DNA from: Agelas oroides
Taxonomy: Eukaryota; Porifera; Demospongiae; Agelasida; Agelasidae
Length of the DNA stretch: 64,000 nucleotides
Assembly: GCA_949130485.1 (NCBI GenBank)
Contig: OX422193.1
Location: 269,501-333,500, forward strand
Reading direction: 5' to 3'
The position numbers were made by a program, and so were the translations under genes. The notes below the pieces were generated by a model. It did no database searches. It saw only the letters and a list, made by a program, of their open reading frames with translations, and was not told where the DNA came from. Positions 1,696 through 62,764 of this stretch are shown here, in pieces. Numbering within the stretch: position 1 is the stretch's first letter; the number at the start of each line of letters is the position of its first letter.

Positions 1696-4600
1696 TCACC
1701 AACAAATTCTGGGGTCACTAGTTTCTGACTTGTACTTCTTTGGTAGCCGCAGTGGCCACAATGTGTGATTGTGTTTGAGGCTGTTAATGAGCTGGTGAAC
1801 ACCCTCTTCCCCAACTGAGTCATCACACAGGTAGAGTTTCTGCAGTGAGGTGTTGTGTTGTAACATGTCTGCCATTGAGGAGGCTCCCTCCACACCAATG
1901 GGGTTATTATCCAGGGTCAGATGTTTCAGAGTTGAGTTCTTGCAGAGTGCAGCTGCCAGTTCACTAGCACCCTGTCCACTGATGTGGCAGTCTTGTAACC
2001 ACAAATCTGTCAGTGTTTTGTTCTCTATTAATGATTTGGCTATTGCAGTTGCTCCCTCCACATAATCACCAATGGGGTTATTATCCAGGGTCAGATGTTT
2101 CAGAGTTGAGTTCTTACAGAGTGCAGCTGCCAGTTCACTAGCACCCTGTCCACTGATGTGGCAGTCTCGTAAGCTCAACACTGTCAGTGTTTTGTTCTCT
2201 AGTAAAATTTTGGCTAATGCAGTTGCTCCCTCCACGTGATCTCCAACGGGGTTATGATCCAGGGTCAGATGTTCCAGAGTTGAAGTCTTGCAGAGTGCAG
2301 CTGCAATTTCGCTAACGCCCTGTCCATTAATGTGGCAGTAATTTAACCACAACCGTGTGCACTGGTCTCTGAGTATTGATGCTAAGCTGTTCACATTCTC
2401 CATGCTAATGTGAGAGTTTGAAATGTTCAGGTATGTCAGAGAATTGCTGTGACTAAATCCACTGATGATGCTGGCTATACTCCCCGAGGACAAGTTGTTC
2501 TGGTGAATGAAAAGACCTTTAAGTGAGTGATTTGATTTCAGTAGTTCACACAGTGCCTCACAGTCTGGTGCCCCGATCCCAGTGTTGGGCAGCTCCAATG
2601 ATAGCACTCCACTGCCACAGAGAGCCTTGATCACCTCCACAGCACCACCACTACCTATTGGGCTGCAGCTAAACCAAAGGTACTCTAACCTGGACATTGA
2701 TGGTACTGCCTTGGCCAGCAGGTCACATGCACTCTTATCCAGTTTGCTGTGACGTAGGTTTAGCAGTTTCATGTCCTGTAGGATGTGTGGAGGGATGACT
2801 ACCAATGATTCTATGCTTTTGGAGGTGATGTCACTGCCACTGAAGTTGGCACGTGAGATGTGACCTCTGCATCCAGTTCCCCCAGGGGCAGCACATCCCT
2901 GGCAAAACAGTTCAAACTTCTCATCGTCCATAAAATAGTTATTGAAGTTCAGTCTCCAGGGGCAGTTGGAATGAGAGATGGCATGGCCTGTCACATAGTA
3001 GTCCAGGGGAGTCCAGGAGTAGTGCGAAGTGACAACCATCTCATCTGAACCCAGAGTTCGGGTGGTCGCTGAAATGTCTTTTGCCTCAAACAAAAAGTGA
3101 AAACAGTTACGTTTTGCATTTTCACTCTCCAACAACCTCCTAGCCCTTTCATCTAGATCCAGAGTTATGGTAAGAACTGAAAAGTCTTCTGCTACAAGCA
3201 ACTGGCTATAGTTAAGTCCAGTACTCTTCATCAATCTCCTAGTAATGTCGGGAGGTATGTTTGCCAACTTTGTGAGTCCAGCCAAGAATCTCATGGTCAT
3301 TTTGAAGTGGCCATTGTTCACATGTTTTTGAAACAGTTTTGTCTGCTCATGTGCAGGGAGTTGTGAGATATGGACAGCAGCCAAGTATTCCTGTAGGGTC
3401 AAGTGGATGAAGTGGTAGGAGGAGGCTCTGCCCTCAGTGTACAGTTGAGGGACCTCCTGCATCAGGCCGAGGGGAGCAAACCCAGTGGGAACGTGGGCTG
3501 CAGAGAAAACCAGCTGTTGCCTGTTCAGTATACCCTCATAGGCCATTCTGCACAGGTCCTGAAATTGCTTGTACACATCTGTGGGAAGGTCACTGAAGGT
3601 GGTGACCTTCAACTGCTGTTTTTTGTATACTGGGTGTGTTGAGAAATGGTCTACTAGGGTCTTGAGAGTAAAGGCAGTGAAGAGTTCAGTCATAGTGGTG
3701 GGAGGGGGTGACTCAGTGTGTTGGCTCCAGGTGAACACTTCTGCTCCCATCTTTGCTGTGACGGGTGTGTACATGGCTGCCCTGATTACAGGATTAGATG
3801 AGACATAGTCAGTAAATTTGGCAGCAAATGAACTTGGCTGTGCTTCAGCTTCAGCTTTGCTGATGTAATGTTCAATCTGATCTTTAGCAGATGTCAGGAT
3901 CTCCACATGTTGGGTGATTCGATGTCCACAGTTCTTTCTAAGGTGCTCACTGGCCCAGGGTCTGCTTGTGACAAACACAGTCACAAGGGGTAGGATTCTA
4001 CCATGGATGAGGTCGAGAAACACAGAGGCGTTCTCTCGTGGTTCATGATCTAGTTCGTCCCATGCCTCCAGCCAGACAGCCACTCCCTTGCCCTGGTTAC
4101 TGGTGACCTCCTGGACCACTGCCTGCTGGAGCTCTGAGTTTCGGTGGTAGAAGAGGTCTGAGAGGGTCTTGGCCACTTTCAGACTGTTGTCTCGTAGTGG
4201 GAGGAGGAGGAGCAGGGAATGGTCCTGCAGAATCTCACCCCTGGCCCACTTTCTGCAGAACTCCCAGCTGAAGGTTGTTTTGCCCACACCAGGGGCTCCC
4301 TCTATCAGAACAAGATTCTGTTGGTAATGACTTGAGAGTTTGCCAACTTCTTCAAATTCAATTGGAGACTTATTGTAAACCTCAGTGCCAAAGGAACCTA
4401 CATCATCCATATCCCCTCGCAAGTACTGTCTTGTGAGTTCATCTATACTTACTTTGTTTTTCTCAATCCTGGCTAGCTTGAAGGGAAGGAGTTTCTTGGC
4501 TGGGGTAGGAGGGCCAATGCCCACTAGATGTTGCTCAGAGTTGTACAGCTCCCTTAGGTAGCCACCATACTTCTTGACAGGGGTGAGGTAGGCGTCCTGA

Positions 4601-6428
4601 CCATCAATGGTCACTGCATCAATGCCATGTTTCTTGAAGAATTCAGTCTCAAGGTTTTTCAGGTTCTGCTGCAGCAGTGTAGCAATGGAGGGAGAGGTGA
4701 GCCATGTGACACAGATACACCCCCTCTCAGCCTTTTGGAGGAGAATTTCAAATTCTGGCAGGAAGAACTTGTGTACGAGAGCTTTCATAAATGACTCCAC
4801 ATCATGTAGTGTGCACTGGGACCATTCATGCTTCATTTTGACAACCACCTTCTTGAGACGGTCTTCTGGTGGTCTATCATCTCTGCATGGCCAGTTCTCG
4901 ATGAAGTCACAAAGCCGAGTTCTTTGTTTAAATGTAGAAAGTTCACTGACATATTCCTGCATCTGCCGATTCAAGTCTTGATTTCCACACTTATTGATAA
5001 TATGCTCTAAGAATCCATAGTTCAGAAAGTCCCAGTATATGTTCAGAGTGGCCCAGATCTTCTCATATGTTACTGGTGGTGTAATGTTGGTCAATTTCTT
5101 CTCAATGAAGCTTCGATGCAGGGTGCGGGCTGATACAGGCAGGTATGTGACACGAGAAAGGAAATCTGGAGGCTCCATTTGTCTATTCACTTCTTGGTAG
5201 GCTTTGTCTATAAGTTTGCCGAATTTTCTTTCAAAGTGTTCAACTTGGTGTTCTACAGTGTGTGGCATTGTGGAACCTGTGGAATAATGAGATTCAGATA
5301 CACAGAATGAGGAATTGGAACTACCAAATTTCAATCACCATGGTGACATATAGCTAAACCTACTACTGGTTTCCAAGGGTATCAACATGGATACTGATCT
5401 CAGATGTGCTCATACCTATGCACTCTGTGTTATACCTGTGTGTGCTGGTTGGGAAGGGTGTGCAGTGAGAAGTTGTGGAGTAGGAGTGGAGTCACCAGTG
5501 ATGGGGAAGGGCTGCGGGGGAGGGGGTGCAGTTGTAGATGCTAAAAGCTGAGGAGCAGTTAGCTGTGATGTTGGAGGAACAGATGCAAATAAACAGTACT
5601 TGCATTCCAAGTCTGCGGCCAGCCTTGCTTCACCAATAATACTATTTCTTAGGGCGTCCACAATGCTTGCCCATGTAGGGGGAGGAAAACAAGTTTTCAG
5701 CCATGCCATCAAAGTTTCTCTAAGACAATCAGAAGGGTCATTTAAGTACTGTTTCTTGATGGCATCCAGAGTGGAAACACTCACTCGCAGTTGTATACCG
5801 ACGTCGTACCACTTTGCACGTACATCATTCAATTCCCCCCTTACAACTTGCAAGTCATCAACACTCAGCTGCTGGCCTGTAGGTTGAGAATGTGACATCA
5901 TGTCAGTCTAATGGAAGGTTTTATATCATACTGACACAGAAACTCACCGACAGGTCCTGGGTTGGTCTCTATGTCTCCACTCAACAACAGCAGTAGAGTT
6001 AACACTACTCCCACCATCTTACTTCCCAGACCAGAGGGGAGATTGATGGGGAAAACATGACTGACACCAGAGTGGGATGAGGTATAGCATGAACGCATTA
6101 TATTTGACCACACTACTCTGTTCTGGAGGACCATGGCTGGTAGCGCATTGCTGAGGGATGGTAGGATCATGGTGACATGGCGGAAGGTCATGTGACATGG
6201 GTGAACGTAGCACTGGTGGATGGGGTTTATGTGGTACATGGTTGTTAGCTGTACATGTTCATCCACAAGCCCTAACATTGGTAGCATGAGAACACACACA
6301 GAAACCAGGAGGCTGATACCAGGGGTCACATGACCCAGTTGACAGTGACGAAAAATGTACTGTCGTGGCCTCCGGTATGACTTCAATGTGTTGGTCTGAA
6401 CTTTCTGGTGCCCAGTAGTGAATGGCAT
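1696..6428 (-). CDS. NLR1: 2A/signal-DEATH-NACHT-LRR receptor, 1500 aa
   Basis: Three coding exons (6428-5948, 5876-5436, 5276-1696) join in frame through two phase-1 introns to give 1500 residues. Residues 1-160 contain a hydrophobic segment (SLLVSVCVLMLPMLGLV) and end in a second hydrophobic run followed by the 2A-like motif GDIETNPGP. Exon 2 encodes a death domain (about 163-255: KWYDVGIQL, LMAWL, TWASIVDAL) and a Pro-rich tail. Exon 3 starts with a 200-residue region shared with NLR2 (DFLNYGFLEHII, CDFIENWP). The NACHT ATPase follows, with Walker A GAPGVGKTT near residue 637 and a Walker-B-like VWLEAWDELD, then a helical region and RI-type leucine-rich repeats from about 1135 to the end. 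Such NLRs are intracellular immune sensors. A 5' UTR exon ending at 6605 (donor gtgagt) is likely, with the acceptor ag directly before the ATG at 6428. The gene diverges from the deacetylase at 6804. Confidence 0.9.
5952..6017 (-). other. 2A-like ribosome-skipping motif after hydrophobic segment (NLR1)
   Basis: The sequence reads MVGVVLTLLLLLSG followed directly by DIETNPGP; GDIETNPGP occupies 5978-5952. It fits the 2A consensus D-x-E-x-N-P-G-P, at which the ribosome skips the Gly-Pro bond. The motif lies two codons before the exon end. Skipping would release the hydrophobic N-terminus and leave a cytosolic DEATH-NACHT-LRR protein starting at Pro. Without skipping the N-terminus would direct the protein to membranes. 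Function is inferred from the motif. Confidence 0.85.
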
Positions 6429-6803
6429 CTGAAGGGAGGGAGGGGAATGAGGGACAATAAATTATGCCAAAAGGGCACAAGACATGACTGAAGGTACATG
6501 CAGTTAAGGACGCGGGTAACGAGGTAGCTTTGTTCTCAGGTCGTTAAAATGAACCTGGGTATATACGAGACCTGCTGCTAGTTTAGTCTCGTTGTTTAAC
6601 TCACCTTGTAGTGAAATGTATAGCCGTCGGGAACAGTAAACAACAACTTGTCTTCATACACGAGCCGCACCCACACAACACAACTAATATTCATCTTCTA
6701 ACATAATTTGTGGGTGGGGCTGGGCATTCCCCTGAGGGTAATAATATAACATGTGACTTCGGGTCCTGATCTCGTTTTAGCTGTGTTGCTCGACGGAAAG
6801 AGG
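6429..6803. promoter_or_regulatory. Shared divergent promoter region, NLR1 / deacetylase copy 1
   Basis: The two start codons face away from each other across 375 bp. The stretch around 6480-6660 is repeated almost unchanged at 21340-21515 between NLR2 and deacetylase copy 2. On the minus strand a gtgagt donor at 6604 marks the likely end of a non-coding first NLR1 exon. An upstream ATG at 6657-6655 opens a short frame that runs into the coding exon in a different frame, and the same arrangement is kept in NLR2. No TATA box was identified with confidence. Confidence 0.55.
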
Positions 6804-9800
6804 ATGGCGCTGCAGCTTGACCTGGACAGAGACCGCTACGTGTCTCTGCTGGAGAAGTTGATCGGAGAGGTAGAATTTTTGCAGGACAACCCGCCGAAAT
6901 TCGTACCACAAGAGGATAGGTATGTAGTGATCACGTTGTGCTAGTCTGTAGTGAACTAGTCCTCAGGCTCTACCTGTTGTTACAGTGAGCAGTTCACATG
7001 TAGAATACATGCAGTGCAACATATACGGATACCTCCATGTAGCCTAGGAAAATAAGACATCTTGATGCACTGTACTGCAGAATTTCCCGTGTGTGCATGT
7101 AAAGTAGTTCTCGTCTACAGTACTCAGTTCTTGACTCAGTGCTAACTACCAATTCAACCTACCACCAATGATCATGGTCACACACACACACACACACACA
7201 CACACCCTCACAGGGCCATCAAGCATCTACTTGATGCTCTGAGGCCGTACAGTGTTGAGAATGGAGGACCTCTGAAGGTGGAACATGTGTGGTACGTGGA
7301 GGGTCGGGGGAACCTGATTATTGAGTACACACCAGAGGGAGCCAAGGGTGAGTTTGAGGGGAGGAGAGAAAGGGGGGGGATGAAGGTGAGTTTGAGGGAG
7401 AGGGAGGAAGTGGAGGGAGGGGTGGGGGATTAGAAAAGGAGGGAGGACAAAAGAGGGAAGGAGGGTGACCTGTGTGCTATGTGTGTTTTCTAAGGTACAT
7501 GAAATAACAGTTGTCGAAGGAATAGTTTATACAGTTTGTGCATCATGCATGGTTGTGTACAGACCAGGTATATAGCTACATGTACACAAAATAGGAGCCT
7601 GTCACATTGCATCATCTCAGGGACAGTGGCGTTTGTTGGGAGTCACTTGGACGTGGTTCCAGCTAACCCAGAGACGTGGGAGAGGAACCCCTTCAAGCTC
7701 GTTGTGGAGGTAGGGACACTGCTGCTGTTCAAATGGTTTGTTTTGAGTCGTTTCAGTTTCAATGAGCAAACTGTAGGAACTCCTCTTGTACAAGACCTTT
7801 AGGGTCAGTGCTGTTTGTGTAGTTTGTAACTTGCTCCTAAACTGATTGATACCTGTGATCACTTTGTGCTATGGTTGTACATGTATGTCTTCTGTCTGCC
7901 TTCACTCTACTCTGGTAGTGTATTGTAAGACAACCGTCTCTCCTTGTTCCAAGGTGTTTGCTTGGTTCACTGCTTGCAGTACAAAATTTGCATGAAGTTG
8001 ATACTGAAAAAGAGGAGAACATGTGCTACGTACTCTTCTTCCTCCCCTCTCCTCTCCTCTCCTCTCCTCTCCTCTCCTCTTCCTCTCCTCTCCTCTCCTC
8101 TCCTCTCCTCTCCTCTCCTCTCCTCTCCTCTCCTCTCCTCTCCTCTCCTCTCCTCTCTTCCCTCCTCTAGGGAGACAAGCTGTATGGCAGGGGTACCACG
8201 GACTGTCTGGGTCATGTGGCTTTGATCACGGAACTGTTCATTCAGTTGGCACAGAAGAAACCAAAACTGAAATACTCTGTTGTTGCCGTCTTTATTGCCG
8301 CGTGAGTGGGTGGGAAGGGACTGGGACACACCTCTTTGCAAACACTCATCCTCACATCCTCACATGCACTCTCACATCCTCATATCCTCACACCCTCACA
8401 CCCTCACACCTTCATCCCCTCACACCCTCACACCCTCATAGTGAGGAGAGTACTGCTATCCCGGATGTGGGTGTGGACAAGTTGATGAAGGACGGTAAAC
8501 TGGACCACCTCAAGAACGGACCAATCTACTGGGTGGACTCTGCTGATGTCAACCCATGCATGGGTAAGACTGTCGTGTCTCCTTCCCTCTTCTCTCCTTC
8601 TTCCTTTCCACCTCCCGTTACTCTCTTTCTCCCTCCCTCCTCCTCCCCCCCCCCCCCTCCTCTCTCTCCTCTCCTTCTCTCCCCCCTCCTCCTCCTCCCC
8701 CCCCCTCCTCTCCTCCTCCCCTCACTCTCCTCTCCCCCCCTCTCCTCCTCTCCTCATTCCCTCCCTTTACATACAGGCACTGCTGCAGTAGCAATGTGGA
8801 CATTACTGGTCAAAGGTCGTCTGTTCCACTCGGGCCTCCCTCACAAAGGGATCAACTCCATTGAACTAGCCAGTGAGGCCATGGCATATATTCAACGCAG
8901 GTTTTACGAGGACTTCCCTCCGGTAAGTCTTGTAATCCCTCTCAACCCTTCCCTTTTCTCTCCCAGCCTCTCCCTCTCGTGGATGTATGTGGATGTGTGT
9001 GGCTGTGTTCTTGTGGTGTTGTGACAAGGTGGGCACGCGTCTTGAACAGCACAGTTTCAAAAGGACACCAAGTACAGACTGAGCATAGAATATACATGCG
9101 TGCAATATATAGAGATGATTACATAATCTGACATAAGAAGGAGGAAATAGAAATAATAATCAGAAGTAATGAGTCTAGAGTTCACAGTCACCACACATCC
9201 CCCCTCTCAGGCTTGTGGTATCACAGTCCATGGCCATATCTCTCCATAGGCCTTCGAGGTCTTGAGGAACGTCTCGGGGTAGGGTTAGATGGTAGCACAG
9301 GAGGAAGTGATTGAAGTACAGGTGATGAGGATGTGTCTGGCAAGTACAATGGATCGACATTGTCACTCTTGTTCTGCTGAACCTTTGCATGTCTCACACG
9401 CAGTGAGTCCACATGTCTACGAACAGTGTGTCCAGACTCCAACTCCACATGGTAAGACAGAGGTCCTGTAACCTTGACAACAGTGCCTGGTAACCACTTC
9501 GGTGATGATCCGGTGAAGTTCTCAGCATACACTGTATCACCAACACAAAAGGAACGTAAAGGAGCAGCCGAGTCATGAGTTTGCTTCTGCTTCCTCTGTT
9601 GACTCTCGATTCTCTGTGAGGTGTCCGGAAACCATAAATCTAGTCTGCACCTGATGCGACGACCAATGAGAAGCTCGGATGGCGCTACTCCTGTGACTGA
9701 ATGAGGAGTTAGCCTGTAGTTGAAAAGGAATTTGGAAACACGTTCTTGAAGAGTGGTGCCAGAAATTCGAGCTATTCCTCTTTTGAGAGTTTGAACTGCT

Positions 9801-12800
9801 CTCTCTGCTAAGCCATTGCTTGAAGGGTGATATGGTGCTGACTTGACGTGTACAATTCCGTTCTTCTGCATAAACTCTTGAAACTCATAACTCGTAAACG
9901 TTGGACCATTGTCTGATACAACTTTGCGAGGAATCCCATGGTTTGCAAAGATGATACGCAGTTTCTCAATCGTTTTCGCTGACGTAATTGAGTGCATGAG
10001 ATGAACGTCCATCCATTTAGAGTGAGCGTCGACGAGTACAAGGAACATTGATCCCATGTATGGACCTGCAAAATCCAGGTGGATGCGACTCCATGGCTCA
10101 GATGGCCATTCCCAGGGATGCAAGGGAGCGGCAGGAGGAGAAGGTCGGGACTCTTGGCATGTCTGACATTGTTTTACTGTGTCCTCAATGGCTGAGTCCA
10201 TCTTTGGCCACCAAATGTAGTTCCGGGCAAGACTCTTCATTCTAGCACAGCCGGGATGAGTCTCGTGTAACTCTTGCAAAACAAGCTCTCTTCCTTGGGG
10301 CGGGATCACCATGCGTGACCCCCACAGGATGCAACCATCCCAAGCGCTCATCTCAGTCTTCCTGGAGAGGAAGGGCTTGAACTTCTCGTCAGTGATCTGA
10401 TCCGGCCAACCTGTCTGAATATACCGCAGCACTCGAGAAAGTACTGGGTCTTTGGCAGTCCAGCTTCTGATGACACCAGCATTGATGGATGTTGAAGAGA
10501 GATGTAGAACCAGTTGGGCCAGCTCATCTGGTACACAATCTGAGTTAGTAGTGATCGGGCGGGGTAGTCTGCTTAGAGCATCTGCATTATTCAAGGTTTT
10601 GCCCGACTTGTACCTGATATTATACTGGTAGGCTGCCAGTGTAAGTGCCCATCTCTGTATTCTCGCTGATGCCATGGCTGGTATGCCTTTAGTCTCATTG
10701 AAGAGATGTGAGAGTGGCTGGTGGTCTGACTCGATGGTGAATTGTCTGCCGTAGAGGTAATTGTGGAACTTTTTCACGCCGAAGACAATGGCTAAGCCTT
10801 CTCTCTCAAGTTGAGAGTAGTGACGCTCGGCGGAATTGAGAGTCCTTGAAGCGTAGGCTATGGGCTTCTCTTCGCCGGTGTCAAGGATGTGCGAGAGGAC
10901 AGCTCCGATACCGTACTCTGATGCGTCGCAAGCCAGGAGCAGAGGTTTGGCACTGTCGTAATGTACCAGGACGGAGTCTGCTTGAAGAGCTTCTTTGGCG
11001 AGTTTGAAAGCCATGTCATGTTGTTCAGTCCAGGTCCAGCGCTTGTTCTTGAGCAGGAGGTTGTACAGAGGTCTCAGCTTGGTGGAAAGATTTGGCAAGA
11101 ATTTCGAATAGTAATTGATGAGACCGAAGAATGAGCGAAGTTGAGTGACGTTCTTGGGTGTAGGGGCTTCCTTGAGAGCAGCAATTTTGCCATCTGTTGG
11201 GTGTAGTCCATTTTCATCGATGATATGCCCCAAGTACTCGATACGAGGCTTCAAGAATGAGCACTTTGTGTGGTTGAGGCGTAAACCTGCATTTTCAATG
11301 CAGCTCAGTGTCGCGTCCAAATTCTGTAGGTGCTGATCCGTGGAACACCCGGTAACCAGGACATCATCTTGGTAGACGGAAACTCCTCTCAATCCCCTAA
11401 GCAATGTCTCCATGGTCCTTTGAAATATTGCTGGGGCTGATGACACGCCAAACGGGAGACGATTAAATTGAAACAGCCCTTTGTGAGTGTTGATAGTGAC
11501 ATATGGTTTGGACTCGTCAGACAGTGGTAACTGTAGGTAGGCATTGGACATGTCCAACTTGGTGAAAAGCTTGCCTCCAGAAAGATCAGCAAAAAGGTCA
11601 TCGACTCGTGGGAGTGGGTAGGTCTCAGTGACAGAGGCTTGATTGATGGTGGTCTTGAAATCCCCGCAGATCCTAATGGTACCATCACTCTTTGGAACAG
11701 GGACGATGGGGGCTGCCCACTGGGAATGCTGCACAGGGGATATAATGCCTAGCTGCTCCAGCCTACTCAGTTCTTTTTCAACCTTCTCTCTCAGAAGGTA
11801 AGGGACAGTTCTGGGCTTCAGGAACTTGGGTTTAGCAGCTTCATTCACCTGTAAGGTGACCTTGGCATCTTTTAGGCACCCTAGGCTCCCATCAAAGACC
11901 GCCTCGTGCTTATCTAACACTTCTTTGATCTTGTCATGCTCCAGTAGATTCACCTGACCTATGTTGACATTAAGTCTCCCCAGCCAGTCTCTGCCCATTA
12001 AGTCAGGTCCCTCCCCAACAACTACCTGGGCTGATAATGTAGCCACAATCTCACCATAGTGCACTGTCATGTTGGTTGCCCCGACAACCGGTATAGGTTC
12101 ACCTGTGTATGTCAGTAGCCGGGTAGTAGAAGGATGGAGGGTGAGTGTGGCATCATGTTGCTTCAGCCGGTTGAACGTCGCTTGGCTGATGATCGAGAGA
12201 GACGCTCCCGTGTCTAACACCATGTCCACAGGGACGTCGTTCAGGAGGACCTGCATTCGGGTCGGCTCATTCGATTGATCCTCCAGTGTGAACATTTCGT
12301 ATGTGCGGTCCGTTTCGTCTTGTGTCAACTCCTCGGTTACGAACATGTTCTTGCGGGTGTTTTGTGATGGCATGGATGTCTCTTGAGCTCTCCTCTTAGC
12401 TCTGCAGACGTGGGCTAAATGACCTTTTTTTCTACAGAAGCCACATTCAGTGTCCTTGTGGCGACACACATTTGCAAGGTGGTTGCCTCCACACCTATAG
12501 CACGTAATTTCGCCCTTGCTCTTGCTAGGAGACATCTTCGTAGAAGACTTCCCGCGTTCTTTACTGTGACTGTAGAGAACAGGGTTGCAGTGTGAGCGTT
12601 CAGCTTTCAAATTCTTGGTGTCTCGTTCGGCAACTTCGATAGCAACAGCAACGCTGTACGCCTTGTCAAAGTCGAGTTCTTTCTCGGCTAGTAACTTCTT
12701 CTGAATCCCATCGTGATTGACGCCGCAGACAAGTCTATCTCTAAGCATCTCTGGCAGGGATGTACCGTAGTTGCAGTGTTCGGCTATTTCACGAAGGGCG

Positions 12801-15383
12801 GCAACGTAAGCAGCTACGGTTTCTCCAGGCGCACGATTGCGAGTGTTGAACTTGTAACGCTGAACGATCGGCGAGGGCAACGGCTCATGGTACTCCTTGA
12901 CCAGAGCACACAGCTCAACGAAGGTCATGGTAGGGAACTTGCTCGGGTCAGCCAAGCTCTTGATCAGCTTGAACGTCGCAGGTCCGCACACGGAAAGTAG
13001 TATTGCACGTTTCTGTTCAGCTTCCGTGACTTTGTTCGCAACGAAGTAGTGACCGAGCCTCTCAGTGTAAATACTCCAGCTCTCCTTGCCTCCAGGCTGG
13101 AACTCAGACATTGTTCCGTGCATCGCCATAGCCCCCGAAAAGTTTTATCCTCGTCGCCAAATGTGGTGTTGTGACAAGGTGGGCACGCGTCTTGAACAGC
13201 ACAGTTTCAAAAGGACACCAAGTACAGACTGAGCATAGAATATACATGCGTGCAATATATAGAGATGATTACATAATCTGACATAAGAAGGAGGAAATAG
13301 AAATAATAATCAGAAGTAATGAGTCTAGAGTTCACAGTCACCACACTTGTGCAGCCCTTTGGCTGTGTGTGTTTGTGCTAGAGTGGACCACCTGAAACAT
13401 TGTGAAAGTGAAAGCTACGTGTGTGGCTGTTGGTATTGGCAATGGGAACCGAAATGTCCTCTCTGCATTCTGGACTTCATTGAATATTGTTTTCCTGGCG
13501 TCAGCTAGTGGTTGCAATGCAAGACTTTCCAGTGGGAGATCCTGTAACTTCTCTCACCTCCTTCTCTCCTCCCTGTCCTCCCACCCCCCCTCCTCTCCTT
13601 CTCTCACCTCCTCTGTCCACCCACCCCTCCTCTCCTCCTCTCACCTCCCCTGTCCTCCCACCACCCTCCTCTCCTCCTCTCACCTCCCCTGTCCTCCCAC
13701 TCCCTCCTCTCCTCCTCTCACCTCCTCTGTCCTCCCACCACCCTCCTCTCCTCCTCTCACCTCCCCTGTCCTCCCACCCCTCCTCTCCTCCTCTCACCTC
13801 CCCTGTCCTCCCACCCCCTCCTCTCCTTCTCTCACCTCCCCTGTCCTCCTGCACCCTCCTCTCCTCCTCTCACCTCCTCTGTCCTCCCACCCCCCTCTGT
13901 CTTCTTAATCTTCTTACCTGCGCACATTCTCACTACCTCCACAAATGTGTGTATACTCTAGTGTTTACGACTGTGTGCTGGTTGCATTGGGCCATGAGAG
14001 GTTGTAAAGATGAGGGATTCAGAGACGTGTTGAAAGTGAAAGTTATCTGATGGCTATATTCACAATGGGAGAGTTAGTTTTACTATCAGTTTGTCCTCCC
14101 TGCACCCTGGACTCTACTGGTAATGTCTCCAGTGAATATACTTCTCCTGGCGCCAGCTAGTGTGTCAGCTACCCGCTGATATCAATTTTCTGTGGAGGAA
14201 CTTGGTGGCCCTAGCTCTTAGCTAAAATTGAATTGATTGTTATCAGTGGTACCACAGGACTCATCAGTATGTACATGTGATGGCTGAATGCAATACCAAC
14301 TGTGCACATTCATTTCTTATTTCTTTTGTTCAAAAGAAATAAGAAATGAAAATGAATGGTAGCCGTGCAATTTGGGATAAATGTGCACAGTTAGTATACA
14401 AATGGTGCCCGTTCTTATGCGCTCTTGATGGTGACATGGTTAGTCAATTGGCCACAAAGTCTGTGAATGGTTCGGTCTACAAGGAAGGTGGGGAGGGAGG
14501 AGGGAGGGCACTGTTCTATCTTATTCTAGCCCTAGAGACAGCCAATTTATTTGTACCATGCAATAGCTCAGCTTGTATATAGACATGGCTGTATCTCTGG
14601 GCCTCCTTGTATGTACCCGCACATGCAAAAGAGAGATTTTTAATATATATGAGAGGGAGGGAAGGGGGTTAGGAAGTTAAATAGACATTGATGTCACTCC
14701 CTCTCTCCTTCATACTGCAAGAATTACAGTAGTGAAGGCTAAGAACCCCCCCTTTCCTTCCCCTAGCACCCTGATGAAAAGTACTTCCAGTTTGCTTCTC
14801 CCTTTTTCTTTCATACTACAAGTAGGCAACGAGGCTACCTATCCCCCCTTGCTCTCCCCCTCCCCCAGCACCCTGATGAGAAGCACTACCAGTTCGCCAC
14901 TCCCTCTACGATGAAGCCGACTCAGATCAAATGCTCTGAGGGGTCCATCAATCAGATTCCTGCGTGGACTGAAATGAAGGGAGACATTCGACTCACTCCA
15001 TTCTACAACATACACAACTGTATGAAGAAATTTGAGAGCTACGTGCAGGAACTCAACGATGGTGAGTCATGTGACAAGTCCTCTTATGATCATGTGACCT
15101 CCTTAGCAACTAGGAGACTAGTATGTAGGTATGTAGGGACTGTACGTTCCCAAATTGCTCCCACCTCCCTCCTACCTCCTCTTCCCCCTCCCCTCACCAA
15201 GACATTACCCAGCTGCCAACCCGAGGCCCTTGTAGCAAGTACACACTTGATCTGGAGGAGGGGCAGTTCTGTGGAGAGCTGAAGCTAACATTTGAGGGAG
15301 AACCATTCAAGGTGAGAGGGAGGTGGAATCCATCTTACTATTGATGTATGACAGTCTCCTGTATGACAGTGTGTGCTTACCTG

Positions 15384-16904: not shown

Positions 16905-19900
16905 TTACCACCAATCGATTCTGTAATCGCTGATTTCTGGCTTGTACTCTTTTGGTAGCCACAGTTTCCTCAATGTCTGGTTGTATTTGAGACTGTTGAT
17001 GAGCTGGTGGACCCCCTCTTCCCCGACTGAGTCATCACACAGGTAGAGGGCCTCCAGTGATGTGTTGTGTTGTAACATGTCTGACATTGAGGAGGCTCCC
17101 TCCACACCAATTGGATTCTGATCTAGGTATAAGTATTTCAGAGTTGAGTTCTTGCAGAGTGCAGCTGCCAGTTCACTAACACCACTAATGTGGCAGTCTC
17201 GTAACACCAATGTTGTCAGTGTGCACTTTGACTGGTCTTTGAGTACCGTTGCTAATCTGATCACATCTGCCATGCTAAAGTGGGAGTTTGAAATGGTCAG
17301 TTTTGTCAGAGAACTGTTGTGACTGAGTCCAGTGATGATGCTGCCTACACTCTCTGAGGACAAGTTGTTGCAACCAATGGCAAGGTGTTGAAGCATGTGA
17401 CTTGATTTCAGTAGTTCACATAGGGCCTCACAGTCTGGTACCCCAATCCCAGTGTTGCCCAGCCCCAATATTTTCACTCCACTACCCCAAAGTGCTTTGA
17501 TCACCTCGACTGTACCACCACTTTCTATTGGGTTGTTAGCGAGCGAAAGGTCCTCTAACCTGGACATTGATGGTACAACCTTGGCCAGCAGGTCACATGC
17601 ACTCCCATCCAGTTTGTTACTATCCAGTTCTAGCACTCTCATGTCCTGTAGGATGTGCTGGGGGACATTTACAAATGAATGGATGCTTTTGGAGGTGATG
17701 TCATTGTAACCAAAGTGGGCACATAAGATGTGGCCCCTGCATCCAGTTTCCTCAAGCATAGCACATCCCTGGCAAAGCAGTTCTAACTTTTCATTGTCAA
17801 CTGAAGAGTATTGAAAGTTCAGTTCCCAGGGACAGTTCGAATAAGAGATGGCATGGCCTGTCACATAGTAGTCCAGGGGAGTCCAGGAGTAGTCTGGCCT
17901 GACATTAATTTCTTCTGAACCCAGAGTTCTGGCAGTCACTGAAATGTCTTTAGCTTCAAACAGAACATGAAAGACGGTATGCTTGGTGCTGTTACTCTCC
18001 ATCAGCCTTCTAATAGTATCAGGAGGTATGTTTGTTAGCTTTGTGAGTCCAGCCAAAAATTGAATAGTCATTTTGAAGTAGCTACTGTCAAGGTGTTCTC
18101 GAACCAGTCTTGTCTGCTCATGTACAGGGAATTGTGAGATGTGAATGGCAGCTAAGTATTCCTGTAGTGTCAAGTGGATGAAGTGGTAGGAGGAGGTTCT
18201 GCCCCCAGTATGCAGTTGAGGGACCTCCTGCATCAGGCCAAGGGGGGCAAACCCAGTCGGAATGTGGGCCACAGGGAAAACAAGTTGTTGCCTGTTCAGT
18301 ACACCCTCATAGGACATTCTGCACAGGCCCTGGAATTGCTTGTACACATTTCTGGGGAGGTCACTGAAGGTGGTGACCTTCAACTGCTGTTTGTGGTACA
18401 CTGGGTGTGTTGAGAGATGGTCTACCAGGGTCTTGAGGGTGAAGGCAGTGAAGAGTTCAGTCATTGTGGTGGGAGGGGGTGACTTGGTGTGCTGGCTCCA
18501 GGTGAACACTTCTGCTGCCATCTTTGCTGTGACGGGTGTGTACATGGCTGCCCTGATTGCAGGATTAGATGAAAGGTATTGCTCATACTCTACTGATAGT
18601 AGCAGTTTAACCTGCTGTGATATTTCACATTTCTCTCTGACATGCTCATCAGCTGGTGTTGGAGGGTCAAAGCCATCTCCTTCTTGAGTGGGAGGCTTTG
18701 GGAACTCACCAGAGCAACTGTCCATTTCATCTAGTATTGGAGTGTCAAACACAGGTGTCTCCAAAGAGTACAATGTTTGCTTAGGTGATACTATCTGTGG
18801 GTTGAGTTTACCAAGTTGTGAGGATGTCCCATGCTGGGTGTCAGAAGGAACCATACTTGTAGACTCATCGGAGTGTATATATACCTCCTCTGCAAGAGTT
18901 ATTTTATGTGTTTCTTTCAGGAGTTTTGCTTTCTCACTTGTGCCTGGTTTTAATGGATGTAACATTTTAGGAACGATGACCATTGGTGATTTTTCACTGT
19001 GCCGTGGCTCTTGCACGCTCTGAGAGGAGAACTGCCGCTGTTTTTTACTGTGTGTGCCAAACTGAATCACACTTGCAGATTTACCCAAGAACATCTTTTC
19101 CTCACTTGTGTTTTCCCTCATGCTGTGAGAGGTGAATTGCTTCTTTGGGTTGTCAAGAGCTTTCCTGGTGGGGTAGCAGTCTCGCCCATCAACGCTAACA
19201 TTTTCAATCTTTTGTTCCACAAAGAACTTACTGCTGGTAGTTTCAATGGCTTCCATTAAGGCATCCACAAATGGCACTGGTATAAGCCACATGATAATGA
19301 TGCTACCAGGCGTGATCTCTCTCAGCCGGAGGGCAAACTTAGGCAGAAAGAACTTGCGGGTGATGACTCCCTCCAACATGTCCAGGTGCTCAAGGGTACA
19401 CTTTTCCCAGTCATGCCCTACCTTGGCAACAAACTCTCGGAGTTCTGTCTCTGGGGGAGTTTGTCCCCGCACTGGCCAGCAATCAATGAAATCACAGACC
19501 CTAGTGGCCTTTCGAAAGGACTGGAGATCACACTCATAAGACTCCATCTTTTGCTTAAGGTCTTCACTGCCAAACTTGCTAATGATATGCTCCAAAAGAT
19601 CATAGTTCAGGAAGTTCCAGTAGCAACCTAACCTTGCCCAGAGATTATTGAAAGTTGTTGCTTGACCAATGTTCATCAGACAGTTATTGATAAATTCTTG
19701 GTGCTCAACTTGTCGAGAAACATCGAGTGATACAAGCCGAGCATGAAGGCGATGCACATTGATGCCTTTGTCTACCAGAAAGTCATATGTGCAGTCTATT
19801 AGTTCAAGGAAACGATCTTCAAACTGTTTTACATATTGCTTGACTGAGTACTTGTCCAGCAATACTGCAGAGGGGTATGGAGGAGTGTGGAGTCAATTAT

Positions 19901-21269
19901 CAAATTTGTAGGTTGTCAGCACTGAGCTATAGTCATATACTAGACATTTGCTAGCCATACCTGTGTGTTCTTGTGCTGAATGGTGAGAGGTCACAGAGGC
20001 CTGATATGTAGTTACTGTCATCTCTGCTGGAGGAGCAGGGTGATCAGAGATAAGAGAGGATGATAGTACTGTGTGTTGAGAAGATGAAGTTTTGGTAGGC
20101 ACCAAAGATGACAGATGCTGGGACTGTACAGGTACTGGTGTGAGAGAGACAGGTCTGGATGGAGTAGATGTAGGTGGTGGCGAAATCCAAGTATGAGCTT
20201 GTGATGCACTGCTCTCATGCTCACCAAATGGCACTGCAGGGTTGTGTCAAAATGGCAAGCTATAAACATTTGCATGTTGGATAACACACATTTACAGTTA
20301 CTACTTCCACTACCAACATTAGTGACAGTAAGTAACTACCTTCTGGGTCCACAAGAGCACCGCAAAGTGATGGTTTCTGATTGAGGTAGCCATGGGTCAC
20401 CCCTCCCTCTGTTCTTGGGTAGTACTTGTCTCTCAGCTGTTGAGCCAGGAGCCCCTCCCCCACAGGAGGACTCTCAAGAGCTTCAGTGAGAATGTTCCAG
20501 GTGGGAGGAGGGTTGGTACACTTCAACCAGACAGTCAGCATTTCTAGAAGTCGTTCAGTCATTGGGAGATTTTCTCTTCGAATGGACTTCAGGGTTTCAA
20601 TAGGAACTTGCAACTGTACTCCAAGAGATAACCACTTGTCAGAGACAGGATGCAGCTCACGGTGAAGGACCCCCAGGTCTCCTTGCCCTACAGGGATTGA
20701 GGACACAATAGATCAACAAAGTGAGTGCAGAGCATACCATCATCTAACTAAAGCCAAGAAAGTAATTTAAACCAGAAGGCCTCCAGCAACATCGTTAGTG
20801 GGACAAACTCACCAAGGGGCCCTGGGTTTGTCTCTATGTCTCCACTCATCAGCAGTAATACTAACGCCAACACCCTTTGCAGACCAGGGGTGATGGTGGG
20901 AGCTAAACTGGAGGAAACATGAGCAATGCTGGATGAGTTATACAATGGTGACCTGATGTTTAAGTTCACTCCTCTGTTCTGGAGGACCATGGCTGATAGT
21001 ACATTGCTGAGGGATGGCAGCATCAGGAGGGCAGGGCTGAAGGTCATGTGACATGGGTAAACATGGCACTGGTTTATATGGTACATGGTTGTTAGCCATG
21101 CATGTTCATCTACTAGCCCTAACATTGGTAGCATGAGAACACACACAGAAACCAGGAGGCTGAGACCAGGAGACATATGACCCAGTTGACAGTGGTGGTA
21201 GATGTACTGTGGTGGCCTTTTGTACACCTTCATTATCTGAACTTTCTGGTATCCAGTACTGAGTGGCAT
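16905..21269 (-). CDS. NLR2: NACHT-less paralogue, 2A/signal-DEATH-linker-LRR, 1345 aa
   Basis: Four coding exons (21269-20813, 20687-20340, 20233-19961, 19864-16905), all introns phase 1, give 1345 residues. The N-terminal 152 residues parallel NLR1: MPLSTGYQKVQ, a hydrophobic LLVSVCVLMLPMLGLV, then LALVLLLMSGDIETNPGP. Exon 2 is a death domain (KWLSLGVQL, VWLKC, TWNILTEAL). Exon 3 is a Ser/Thr/Pro-rich linker. Exon 4 repeats the NLR1 pre-NACHT region (FLNYDLLEHIISKFG, CDFIDCWP). From about 19187 to 18600 the NACHT domain, Walker A and B included, is absent and replaced by some 195 Ser/Lys/Thr-rich residues. Homology resumes at SSNPAIRAAMYTPVTAK and continues through LRRs. The LRR block is shorter than in NLR1. 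It cannot bind ATP in the usual way and may act as an adaptor, decoy or ligand receptor. Confidence 0.88.
18600..19187 (-). other. In-frame linker replacing the NACHT domain in NLR2
   Basis: About 195 residues rich in Ser, Thr, Lys and Pro, with short repeated-looking phrases such as KKQFTSHS and KKQRQFSSQS. No P-loop or other nucleotide-binding motif is present. Both flanks align with NLR1, where the same place holds about 270 residues including GAPGVGKTT. Confidence 0.8.
20817..20873 (-). other. 2A-like ribosome-skipping motif after hydrophobic segment (NLR2)
   Basis: The sequence reads VLALVLLLMS followed by GDIETNPGP (20843-20817). It has the same motif, the same position just before a phase-1 donor and the same hydrophobic lead-in as NLR1. 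There is no Met close upstream, so initiation must be further upstream, at the conserved MPLSTG start. Confidence 0.85.
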
Positions 21270-24600: not shown

Positions 24601-27014
24601 CTCCCCTCTCCTCCCGTCCCCCTCCTCACCTCCCCTCTCCTCCCGTCCCCCTCCTCACCTTCCCTCTCCTCCCGCCCCCTCCTCACTTCCCCTCTCCTCC
24701 CGTCCCCCTCCTCACCTCCCCTCTCCTCCCCCCGTCCCCCTCCTCACCTCCCCTCTCCTCCCGCCCCCCTCCTCACTTCCTCCCACTTCCCTCCATCTTC
24801 TTACCTCCATGAATGTGGGTATACTCTAGTGTTTACGACTGTGTGCTGGTTGCATTGGGCCATGAGAGTTTGTAAAGATGAGGGATTCAGAGACGTGTTG
24901 AAAGTGAAAGTTATCTGATGGCTATATTCACAATGGGAGAGTTAGTTTTACTATCAGTATGTCCTCCCTGCACCCTGGACTCCACTGGTAATGTCTCCAG
25001 TGAATATACTTCTCCTGGCGCCAGCTAGTGTGTCAGCTACCCGCTGATATCAATTTTCTGTGGAGGAACTGGGTGGCCCCAGCTAAAATTGAATTGATCA
25101 TTATCAGTGGTGCCACAGGACTCATAAGGGTATGTACATGTGATGGCCGGTAGCTGTGAACGTGTTCCGAAAGAAATGAAATGAAATGAGTGGTAGCCAT
25201 TCAATTTGGGATAAATGTGCACAGTTGGTATACAAATGGTGATATGGTTAGGAAATAAATAATTGTTTACATCTGGAAGGAGGGAGGTAGGGAGGGAGGG
25301 AGGGAGGAGGGAGGGAGGAGGGAGGGAGGTAGGGAGGAAGGAGGGAGGTAGGGAGGAAGGAGGGAGGTGGGGAGGGAGGAAGGAGGGAGGTGGGAGGGAG
25401 GAGGGAGGTGGGAGGGAGGAGGGAGGTGGGAGGAAGGAGGGAGGTGGGAGGGAGGAGGGAGGTGGAGGGAGGAGGGAGGTGGGAGGGAGGAGGGAGGTGG
25501 GAGGGAGGAGGGAGGTAGGGAGGAAGGAGGGAGGTGGGAGGAAGGAGGGAGGTGGGGAGGAAGGAGGGAGGTGGGGAGGGAGGGAGGGAGGAAGGGAGGG
25601 AGGACACTGTTATATCTTCTTCCTAGAGACAGCCAATTTATTTGTACCATGCAATAGCTCAGCATGTAGACAATGGCCGTATCTCTAGGCCTCCTTGTAT
25701 GTACCCTCACATGCAAAAGGAGATGTTTATATAAAATGGGAGGGAGGGAGGGAGGGAGGGAAGCTATGATGTCAATCATATGACAGTATCTCTCAGGCAG
25801 CCTCCTTCGTTTTTGCATACTGCAAGAAATACAGTAGTGAAGGTCTAAGAACCCCCCCTTTGCTTCTCCCTTCTTTTTTTCATGCTACAAGTGATCAAAA
25901 ACGGGCTGGTGGCAAAGACATGGCAATGAGGCTACATATCCTCCTCTTGCTCTCACCCTCCTCCAGCACCCTGATGAGAAGCACTACCAGTTTGCCACTC
26001 CCTCTACGTTGAAGCCGACTCAGATCAAATGCTCTGAGGGGTCCATCAACCAGATTCCTGCGTGGACTGAAATGAAGGGAGACATTCGACTCACCCCATT
26101 CTACAACATACACGACTGTATGAAGAAGGTGGAGAGCTATGTGCAGGAACTCAATGATGGTGAGTCATGTGATGAGTCCTCTAATCATGTGACCTCCTTA
26201 GCAACTAGGAGACTAGTATGTAGAGACTGTTCCCAATTTGCTCCTACCTCCCTCCTCTCCCTCCTTTCCCTTCCCCCTCATCCCTCCCGCTCCTCCCTCA
26301 CTCCTTCCTCCCCCCTCCTCTCCCTCCTTCCTCCGTCACCCAGACATTACCCAGCTGCCAACCCGAGGCCCCTGTAGCAAGTACACACTTGATCTGGAGG
26401 AGGGGAAGTTCCGTGGAGAGCTGAAACTAACCTTTGAGGGAGAACCATTCAAGGTGAGAGCGAGGTGAAGTCCATCTTACTATTGATGTATGACAGTCTC
26501 CTGTATGACAGTGTGTGTTAGGTGTGGATCTTACCTGCCACACACACACTCCAGGGTATAGCCTGCAACCTGGACTCAGATGCCTTCAAGAAACTTGAGG
26601 AGGCTACGAAGGAGGTGATGGGTGAGTGCAAGCCATACTCCATCACTGGCAGCCTCCCACTGGTCGGAGATCTCCAGCAGGCAGGGTTTGACGTACAGGT
26701 GGGTCAACATGATAAACTGCTGGCTTGTAATAAGTCACTAACTCCTTCCCCTCCTTGCTCCCTCCCTCCTCCTTCCTCTCCCTTGCTCTCTCCCTCCTCC
26801 TTCCTCTACCCCCCTCCCCTCCTCTTCTCATTCTCTCCCCTGCCCCCTCCCTCCTTTCCTCTCTCTCTTCTCCCCTGCCCCCCCCTCCCCTCCCCAGGTG
26901 TGTGGTTATGGCCACAGCAGTGTCTACCATGGAGACAATGAGTACTGCACTCTCTCTGTCATGGAGAAAGCTTTCAAGATCTTGACCACACTGCTGAACA
27001 AGTTCAACCAGTAG
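21682..27014 (+). CDS. argE-like: Acetylornithine deacetylase-like M20 metallohydrolase, copy 2, 433 aa
   Basis: Ten exons: 21682-21797, 22254-22387, 22513-22601, 23244-23374, 23452-23573, 23813-23958, 25967-26159, 26344-26453, 26555-26698, 26898-27014. Every exon has exactly the length of its copy-1 counterpart and joins in frame to 433 residues. All metal-ligand motifs ([31 protein letters not shown]) are intact. Differences from copy 1 are few; the last exon differs at only two bases. The first exon begins [25 protein letters not shown] as in copy 1, split here only for length. Intron 6 contains a separate MITE-like insertion and two different minisatellites. Role as for copy 1. Placement directly divergent from NLR2 shows it moved with the NLR as one duplicated unit. 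Confidence 0.93.
22976..23120 (+). repeat. Two-copy tandem duplication, intron 3 of deacetylase copy 2
   Basis: A unit of about 72 bp containing gtattgtaagacac and cggcttgtgcttggttcact occurs twice in direct order. Copy 1 has a single, partly deleted version near 7920-7975. Confidence 0.75.
24142..24315. mobile_element. MITE-like element with ~37-bp terminal inverted repeats
   Basis: The left end attgagcgcttcgttggttg and the inverted right end attgagcactttcttggttg match for about 37 bp with mismatches. The interior is AT-rich and non-coding. It lies only in intron 6 of deacetylase copy 2, so it inserted after the duplication. I could not define a target duplication. Confidence 0.65.
24455..24785. 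repeat. C/T minisatellite, intron 6 of deacetylase copy 2
   Basis: About thirteen units of roughly 26 bp, cctcacctcccctctcctcc plus cgcccc variants. Confidence 0.85.
25270..25605. repeat. G/A-rich minisatellite, intron 6 of deacetylase copy 2
   Basis: Tandem ggagggaggtggga and ggagggaggtagggaggaa units, purine-rich on the coding strand. It ends where similarity to the copy-1 intron resumes (gacactgttatatctt against gcactgttctatctt). Confidence 0.85.

Positions 27015-53030: not shown

Positions 53031-62764
<9,734 letters not shown>

Follow-up and report, generated by a model that had tools for sequence, protein, structure and literature searches.

A two-segment hydrophobic leader ending in a 2A-like motif precedes a predicted DEATH-NACHT-LRR sensor in the sponge Agelas oroides

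Our analysis indicates that NLR1, a minus-strand gene of the sponge Agelas oroides, is probably a two-product gene, in which a 2A-like ribosome-skipping (StopGo) site would free a membrane leader from a sensor that is mainly cytosolic, while any uncut fraction would stay anchored in the membrane. The motif itself, a gene model consistent with the splice signals, the conservation of the upstream reading frame and the retention of the arrangement across a gene family are directly seen. The gene lies in a stretch of 64 kb (the window), which is part of the 259 Mb in 141 contigs that were searched.

The motif GDIETNPGP was read at positions 5952-5978 of the minus strand, at the site given in the preliminary description, and a splice donor follows just after it, which confirms that a 2A-consensus motif closes the first coding exon of NLR1. 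The octapeptide DIETNPGP has the form D(V/I)ExNPGP, with a glycine before the aspartate, and the predicted break falls between Gly158 (5955-5957) and Pro159 (5952-5954). A second copy of GDIETNPGP is located ahead of the neighbouring gene NLR2 (20817-20843, minus strand), bringing the exact motif sites in the window to two, against none in 60 first-order Markov sequences of equal length taken together. Genome-wide, the pattern DxExNPGP was found at 287 sites and the reversed pattern, used as a control, at 2, so the motif in the window is not due to chance. For comparisons between sites, the 69 of the 287 that lie in sampled loci or in the window were arranged in a table of 68 rows, in which copies with identical context were merged and one site is counted twice (L007, L046).

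Two hydrophobic segments precede the motif. The sequence MVGVVLTLLLLLSG, at 5976-6017 on the minus strand, comes directly before GDIETNPGP and forms segment 2; it ends in LLLLSG, which is found in 15 of the 68 rows, LLLMSG being found in another 15. The leucine-rich run that had been noted at this place is present, but it does not prove that there is a signal peptide: LLLLSG is one of four upstream StopGo context groups (PMC12846837), and StopGo alone can therefore account for it. Segment 1, GISLLVSVCVLMLPMLGLV, occupies residues 37-55 (6264-6320, minus strand) with a KD-19 value of 2.44, and is preceded by six K/R residues and followed by DE. When the leaders of the genome are sorted into family A, to which NLR1 belongs, and family B, the best window of segment 1 has a KD-19 of 1.6 or more in 22 of the 23 leader-A rows that were aligned and in all 16 leader-B rows, and that of segment 2 in 18 of the 23 and again in all 16; membrane character is judged here by hydropathy. 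The median distance from the end of segment 1 to the glycine is 100 residues in leader A and 60 in leader B. Lying some 100 residues ahead of the skip site, segment 1 appears to be the stronger candidate for membrane targeting in NLR1.

The gene model was derived from splice signals, reading frame and paralogues, and gives a joined frame of 1500 residues with one terminal stop and a DEATH-NACHT-LRR layout. A predicted 5' leader intron at 6429-6604 (minus strand; donor ACAAG/GTGAGT, acceptor CCCTTCAG/ATG, the slash marking the splice site) ends at the start codon, and the corresponding region of the NLR2 copy can be aligned to it, with ACAGA/GTGAGT as the donor there. Exon 1 (5948-6428, minus strand) encodes 151 leader residues, DIETNPGP, a valine and the first base of a glycine codon, and ends as CCT GTC G/GTGAGT. 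A phase 1 intron of 71 nt follows, with the acceptor ACCTACAG/GC CAG, and the joint to the DEATH exon is in frame. Exon 2 (5436-5876, minus strand), with phase 1 introns on either side, carries the DEATH domain and a proline-rich linker, and exon 3 (1696-5276, minus strand) carries a stretch without a Pfam match, the NACHT domain and the LRR region up to the stop codon; both coding introns have GT-AG ends and are in phase 1. A break after residue 158 would, in this model, leave a sensor of 1342 residues.

The domain assignment of the preliminary description, a DEATH-NACHT-LRR protein, stands firmly for two of its parts, since the NACHT domain (3856-4314 of the minus strand, converted from the Pfam match; Walker A GAPGVGKT) scores 55.4 bits against a cut-off of 26.7 and the C-terminal LRR region scores 61 bits with LRR_6 (cut-off 23.4). 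The DEATH domain is sub-threshold in NLR1, with a Pfam Death score of 20.1 bits just below the cut-off of 22.6; the best matches of this exon in a PDB sequence search were FADD death domains (E 3.1e-4). Among the paralogues, L005 (31.0) and L026 (27.8) are above the Pfam Death cut-off, and L003 (22.3) and L022 (22.1) are below it. In 8 of the 68 rows, which include two near-identical pairs, 2A and DEATH are encoded in one frame without an intron, and these rows provide independent support for the joint between exon 1 and the DEATH exon of NLR1.

The first coding exon of NLR2 (20813-21269, minus strand) encodes a leader of the same kind, with 143 residues before DIETNPGP, and it joins in frame and in phase 1 (donor CTTG/GTGAGT, acceptor CCTGTAG/GGCAAG) to a DEATH exon at 20260-20687 of the same strand, whose 3' end is provisional and whose Pfam Death score is 22.2 bits (cut-off 22.6). 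Further downstream, a long open frame at 16905-19892 (minus strand) matches LRR_1 with 23.3 bits (cut-off 20.6), LRR_4 and LRR_6 being below their cut-offs. This frame gave no NACHT match in a Pfam scan and apparently lacks the P-loop region. Upstream, a plus-strand gene that by eye resembles a dipeptidase starts head to head, and the shared upstream region aligns between both copies; the one exon of this gene that was scanned (26522-26941) gave no Pfam match at E 1e-4.

Other features were recorded along the way. Between the two NLR copies, at 9221-13144 on the minus strand, there is an uninterrupted open reading frame of the Ty3/gypsy type with matches to protease, reverse transcriptase, RNase H and integrase. 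An open frame at 39778-40878 matches glycosyltransferase family 6 with 224 bits, and at 60871-61542 an in-frame tandem repeat with variants, recognized by eye, precedes an exon that matches the AAA_12 helicase (61609-62019). Outside the window, a DNA pattern for the silicatein active-site run matches three times on contig C4, in a span of 12 kb (288406-300445), and the reversed control pattern gives no match; two of the three matches were read. The translated stretch at one of these sites has silicatein alpha as its best PDB match (6zq3, E 7.7e-13), ahead of cathepsins, in keeping with a siliceous sponge.

In the mechanism that we favour for NLR1, translation would start at the ATG at 6428 and yield a leader of 158 residues that contains both hydrophobic segments. 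At LLLLSG-DIETNPG/P the ribosome would skip the Gly-Pro bond, as expected from established 2A work, and release the leader, and it would then continue into the 1342-residue DEATH-NACHT-LRR sensor, which would have proline as its first residue. The ribosome exit tunnel holds about 30-40 residues, and since segment 1 lies about 100 residues upstream of the skip site, it should be outside the ribosome well before the skip and could bring the leader to the ER membrane. With a basic N-terminus on one side of segment 1 and an acidic pair on the other, the charges suggest that the N-terminus faces the cytosol. The sensor would be mainly cytosolic, and where skipping fails a fraction would stay joined to the membrane anchor; we consider it more likely that such an uncut product is anchored than that it is freely secreted. 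The 2A reaction is reported to be inhibited when certain upstream proteins are translocated into the ER (PMC2978324), so that the efficiency at NLR1 is not to be assumed and an uncut fraction is possible.

The preliminary description had gone further and proposed dual targeting as in the sea urchin. In a regulated version of this, partial skipping would be the purpose, and the uncut form would be a functional sensor of the secretory pathway or the membrane beside the cytosolic form. Dual targeting is plausible; as the explanation of NLR1 we regard the regulated version as unlikely. It can draw on SpNLR2A6, which splits reporters between cytosol and secretion (PMC4981915), on the putative membrane-bound NLRs noted in sponges (PMC12909245) and on the same inhibition of 2A by an ER-targeted upstream sequence. 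The octapeptide of NLR1 and its context are canonical, which speaks against it, although canonical StopGo sites can also act partially (PMC12846837) and the site is for this reason compatible with dual targeting.

An upstream frame of about 155 residues with a second hydrophobic segment had been described, and this agrees closely with the 158 residues that we count from ATG 6428 up to and including the glycine, with the additional segment at residues 37-55. In the alignment of 23 leader-A rows, the leader frame has a change ratio of 0.58 and the other two frames have 0.94 and 0.92. Indel lengths divisible by three account for 216 of 342 indels in leader A; the corresponding figures are 145 of 466 for the 5' flank and 124 of 450 for the stretch after 2A. 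The indels were counted in pairs at least 80% identical, the pair counts are not independent, and the stretch after 2A is partly coding in intronless rows. Matches free of stop codons numbered 63 of 66 for leader A and 78 of 81 for leader B; these counts come from the leader searches, the 23-row alignment being stop-free by construction because its rows were cut from the previous stop. A change ratio of 0.05 for the last ten codons was set aside because those rows had been collected via the motif, and the motif-free leader search was used instead. At least 80 open codons precede 2A in 61 of the 68 rows. By these measures of sequence conservation, the upstream leader frame is coding.

The start codon was examined in the same alignment, the rows of which had been picked by a pattern requiring M or I at the start and an internal run. 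AG stands immediately before the start codon in all 23 leader-A rows, and the codon is ATG in 21 and ATT in 2. A start of the NLR1 type at ATG 6428 appears well supported and is not universal, since L010, L012, L059 and L075, among 36 rows, have no such start. A shorter leader, with translation starting at the ATG at 6017 and the remainder upstream untranslated, would give NLR1 a signal-like leader as in the sea urchin. NLR1 does have Met138 at 6017, but it is one of 4 among the 23 aligned leader-A rows that do, the other 19 having no methionine in this column, and together with the conserved and largely stop-free upstream frame this makes the shorter form very unlikely. The long leader that we prefer evolves fast, with a mean pairwise identity of 58% in leader A, and any function of its own is therefore uncertain. 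Pfam holds no family for leader A or leader B. A run WRARIG near the start is common to the leader B of L086 (164-598) and the leader of L074, and is perhaps part of a wider leader motif.

The leader families were also searched for without 2A in the query, and leader A without the hydrophobic run as well. For leader A, all 69 candidates were scored and 66 matches were listed (two rows being one locus), which, with NLR1 left out, have a median identity of 52% to NLR1. An exact 2A motif lies within 400 bases downstream in 65 of the 66, in frame in 64. Leader B gave 81 listed matches, 72 with an exact 2A downstream and 68 of these in frame; 1 of 66 and 9 of 81 matches, respectively, are without the exact motif. 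Judged by these sequence matches, the same kind of leader-2A arrangement is present at more than 100 other places in the genome. This retention also bears on the idea that 2A is inactive, so that a membrane-anchored NLR is made and the motif is kept for another reason. The conserved membrane-type segments would suit such a protein; on the other side, D, E, N, P, G and P are kept beside two leader types that were searched without the motif, which is the pattern that StopGo needs, and we consider inactivity highly improbable.

Seen from the motif, 135 of the 287 sites are behind leaders of family A or B, and 28 more are ahead of a listed DEATH-like or NACHT match. The other 124 have, among the matches listed, neither a leader-A/B match nor a DEATH-like or NACHT match downstream; many of them are clustered on contigs C7 and C8.

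Seen from the domains, a same-strand 2A lies no more than 8 kb upstream of 107 of the 150 listed DEATH-like matches, and an opposite-strand 2A in that range upstream of none; 150 of 1025 candidates were scored, and the query included 2A, which may favour fused matches, a bias that the strand control does not cancel. A same-strand 2A downstream instead was found for 3 DEATH-like and 8 NACHT matches among those listed (149 of the 150 DEATH-like rows). Among the 26 listed NACHT matches nearest to NLR1, 24 have a same-strand 2A within 14 kb upstream, compared with 21 of the other 124 listed, and one of the two misses has DIQTNPGP instead (L013). From the leaders downstream, a listed DEATH-like match within 10 kb or NACHT match within 14 kb follows 63 of 66 leader-A and 35 of 81 leader-B matches. 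At L086, leader B is followed by a DEATH exon to which it connects in frame and which passes the 22.6-bit cut-off with 23.4 bits, and a long ankyrin array comes next, the spliced joint covering leader B to DEATH and the array being placed by its position downstream. On contig C9, a further DEATH-like open reading frame was noticed by eye downstream of a leader-A place.

PHD-type open reading frames, which we take to be mobile elements from their look, follow 2A in 9 of the 68 rows, as found by pattern; two were scanned and both matched PHD, one of them also DUF6570. A leftover of such an element, or a chance match, has a negligible probability as the source of the NLR1 motif, given the 287 sites against 2 in the control, leaders that by eye bear no likeness to the PHD-type ones, and above all the strand- and position-specific link between 2A and DEATH. 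A search for leader and DEATH in viral contigs found nothing.

StopGo is common in RNA viruses and rare in cellular genes (PMC12846837). A wider reading, which we put forward tentatively and hold to be somewhat less probable than its opposite, is that StopGo is part of routine host gene expression in this sponge. Two families of two-segment membrane leaders would have been shuffled before DEATH-NACHT-LRR, DEATH-ankyrin and other DEATH proteins, giving two-product immune gene families; each leader would be a functional small membrane protein, produced in equal number with its sensor, and some sponge "membrane-bound" NLRs would really be split and cytosolic. If the 2A sites work, animals would use StopGo regularly in expressing immune genes, in the sponge as in the sea urchin, and the membrane segments predicted for sponge NLRs would have to be read differently.

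Several known systems can be compared with NLR1. A literature search, thin on subscription papers, found the sea-urchin work on 2A in NLRs and no sponge case; the terms "2A-like", "NLR" and "sponge" occurred together in one paper, where "2a-like" is part of a gene name only, and in the 2026 study of sponge NLRs (PMC12909245) "2A-like", "skipping" and "signal peptide" have no occurrences. 2A sequences have been described in non-LTR retrotransposons (Odon 2013, via PMC11512398), and the presence of 2A in animal mobile elements is shared here by the mobile-looking PHD-finger frames, whereas the NLR leaders are parts of gene families tied to DEATH domains. NLR1 agrees with the LLLLSG class of StopGo sites (PMC12846837) in having exactly this hexapeptide, with G at p11 and D at p12; of the two L-rich motifs of that catalogue (2 and 6), motif 6 was assayed and was active. 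The catalogue is viral and favours S at p15, whereas NLR1 is a host gene with T at p15.

The closest likeness is to the SpNLR2A proteins of Strongylocentrotus purpuratus (PMC4981915), and the resemblance to sea-urchin NLRs that had been pointed out for NLR1 holds, the first coding exon of this DEATH-NACHT-LRR gene carrying a canonical octapeptide. According to that source, 85 of 241 sea-urchin NLRs have 2A-like sequences, 2A is found in NLRs and in retrotransposons alike, and the SpNLR2A example that was tested skips partly. In both systems a hydrophobic run followed by D(V/I)ExNPGP lies at the N-terminus of a DEATH-NACHT-LRR protein or close to it. They differ in that the 14 characterised N-terminal sequences of the sea urchin are 26 residues long, as against 158 for the NLR1 leader by frame conservation, and in the second hydrophobic segment of NLR1 about 100 residues upstream; some sea-urchin 2A sequences are placed "within the N-terminal region" (PMC4981915), so longer leaders may exist there. 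They differ further in that the 2A leader here also stands ahead of a DEATH-ankyrin protein, and in the host, a sponge. The NLR with 2A is known as a kind from the sea urchin; what looks new within the literature searched is its occurrence in a sponge, the length and two-segment build of the leader, the presence of such a leader before a DEATH-ankyrin gene, and the scale on which it recurs.
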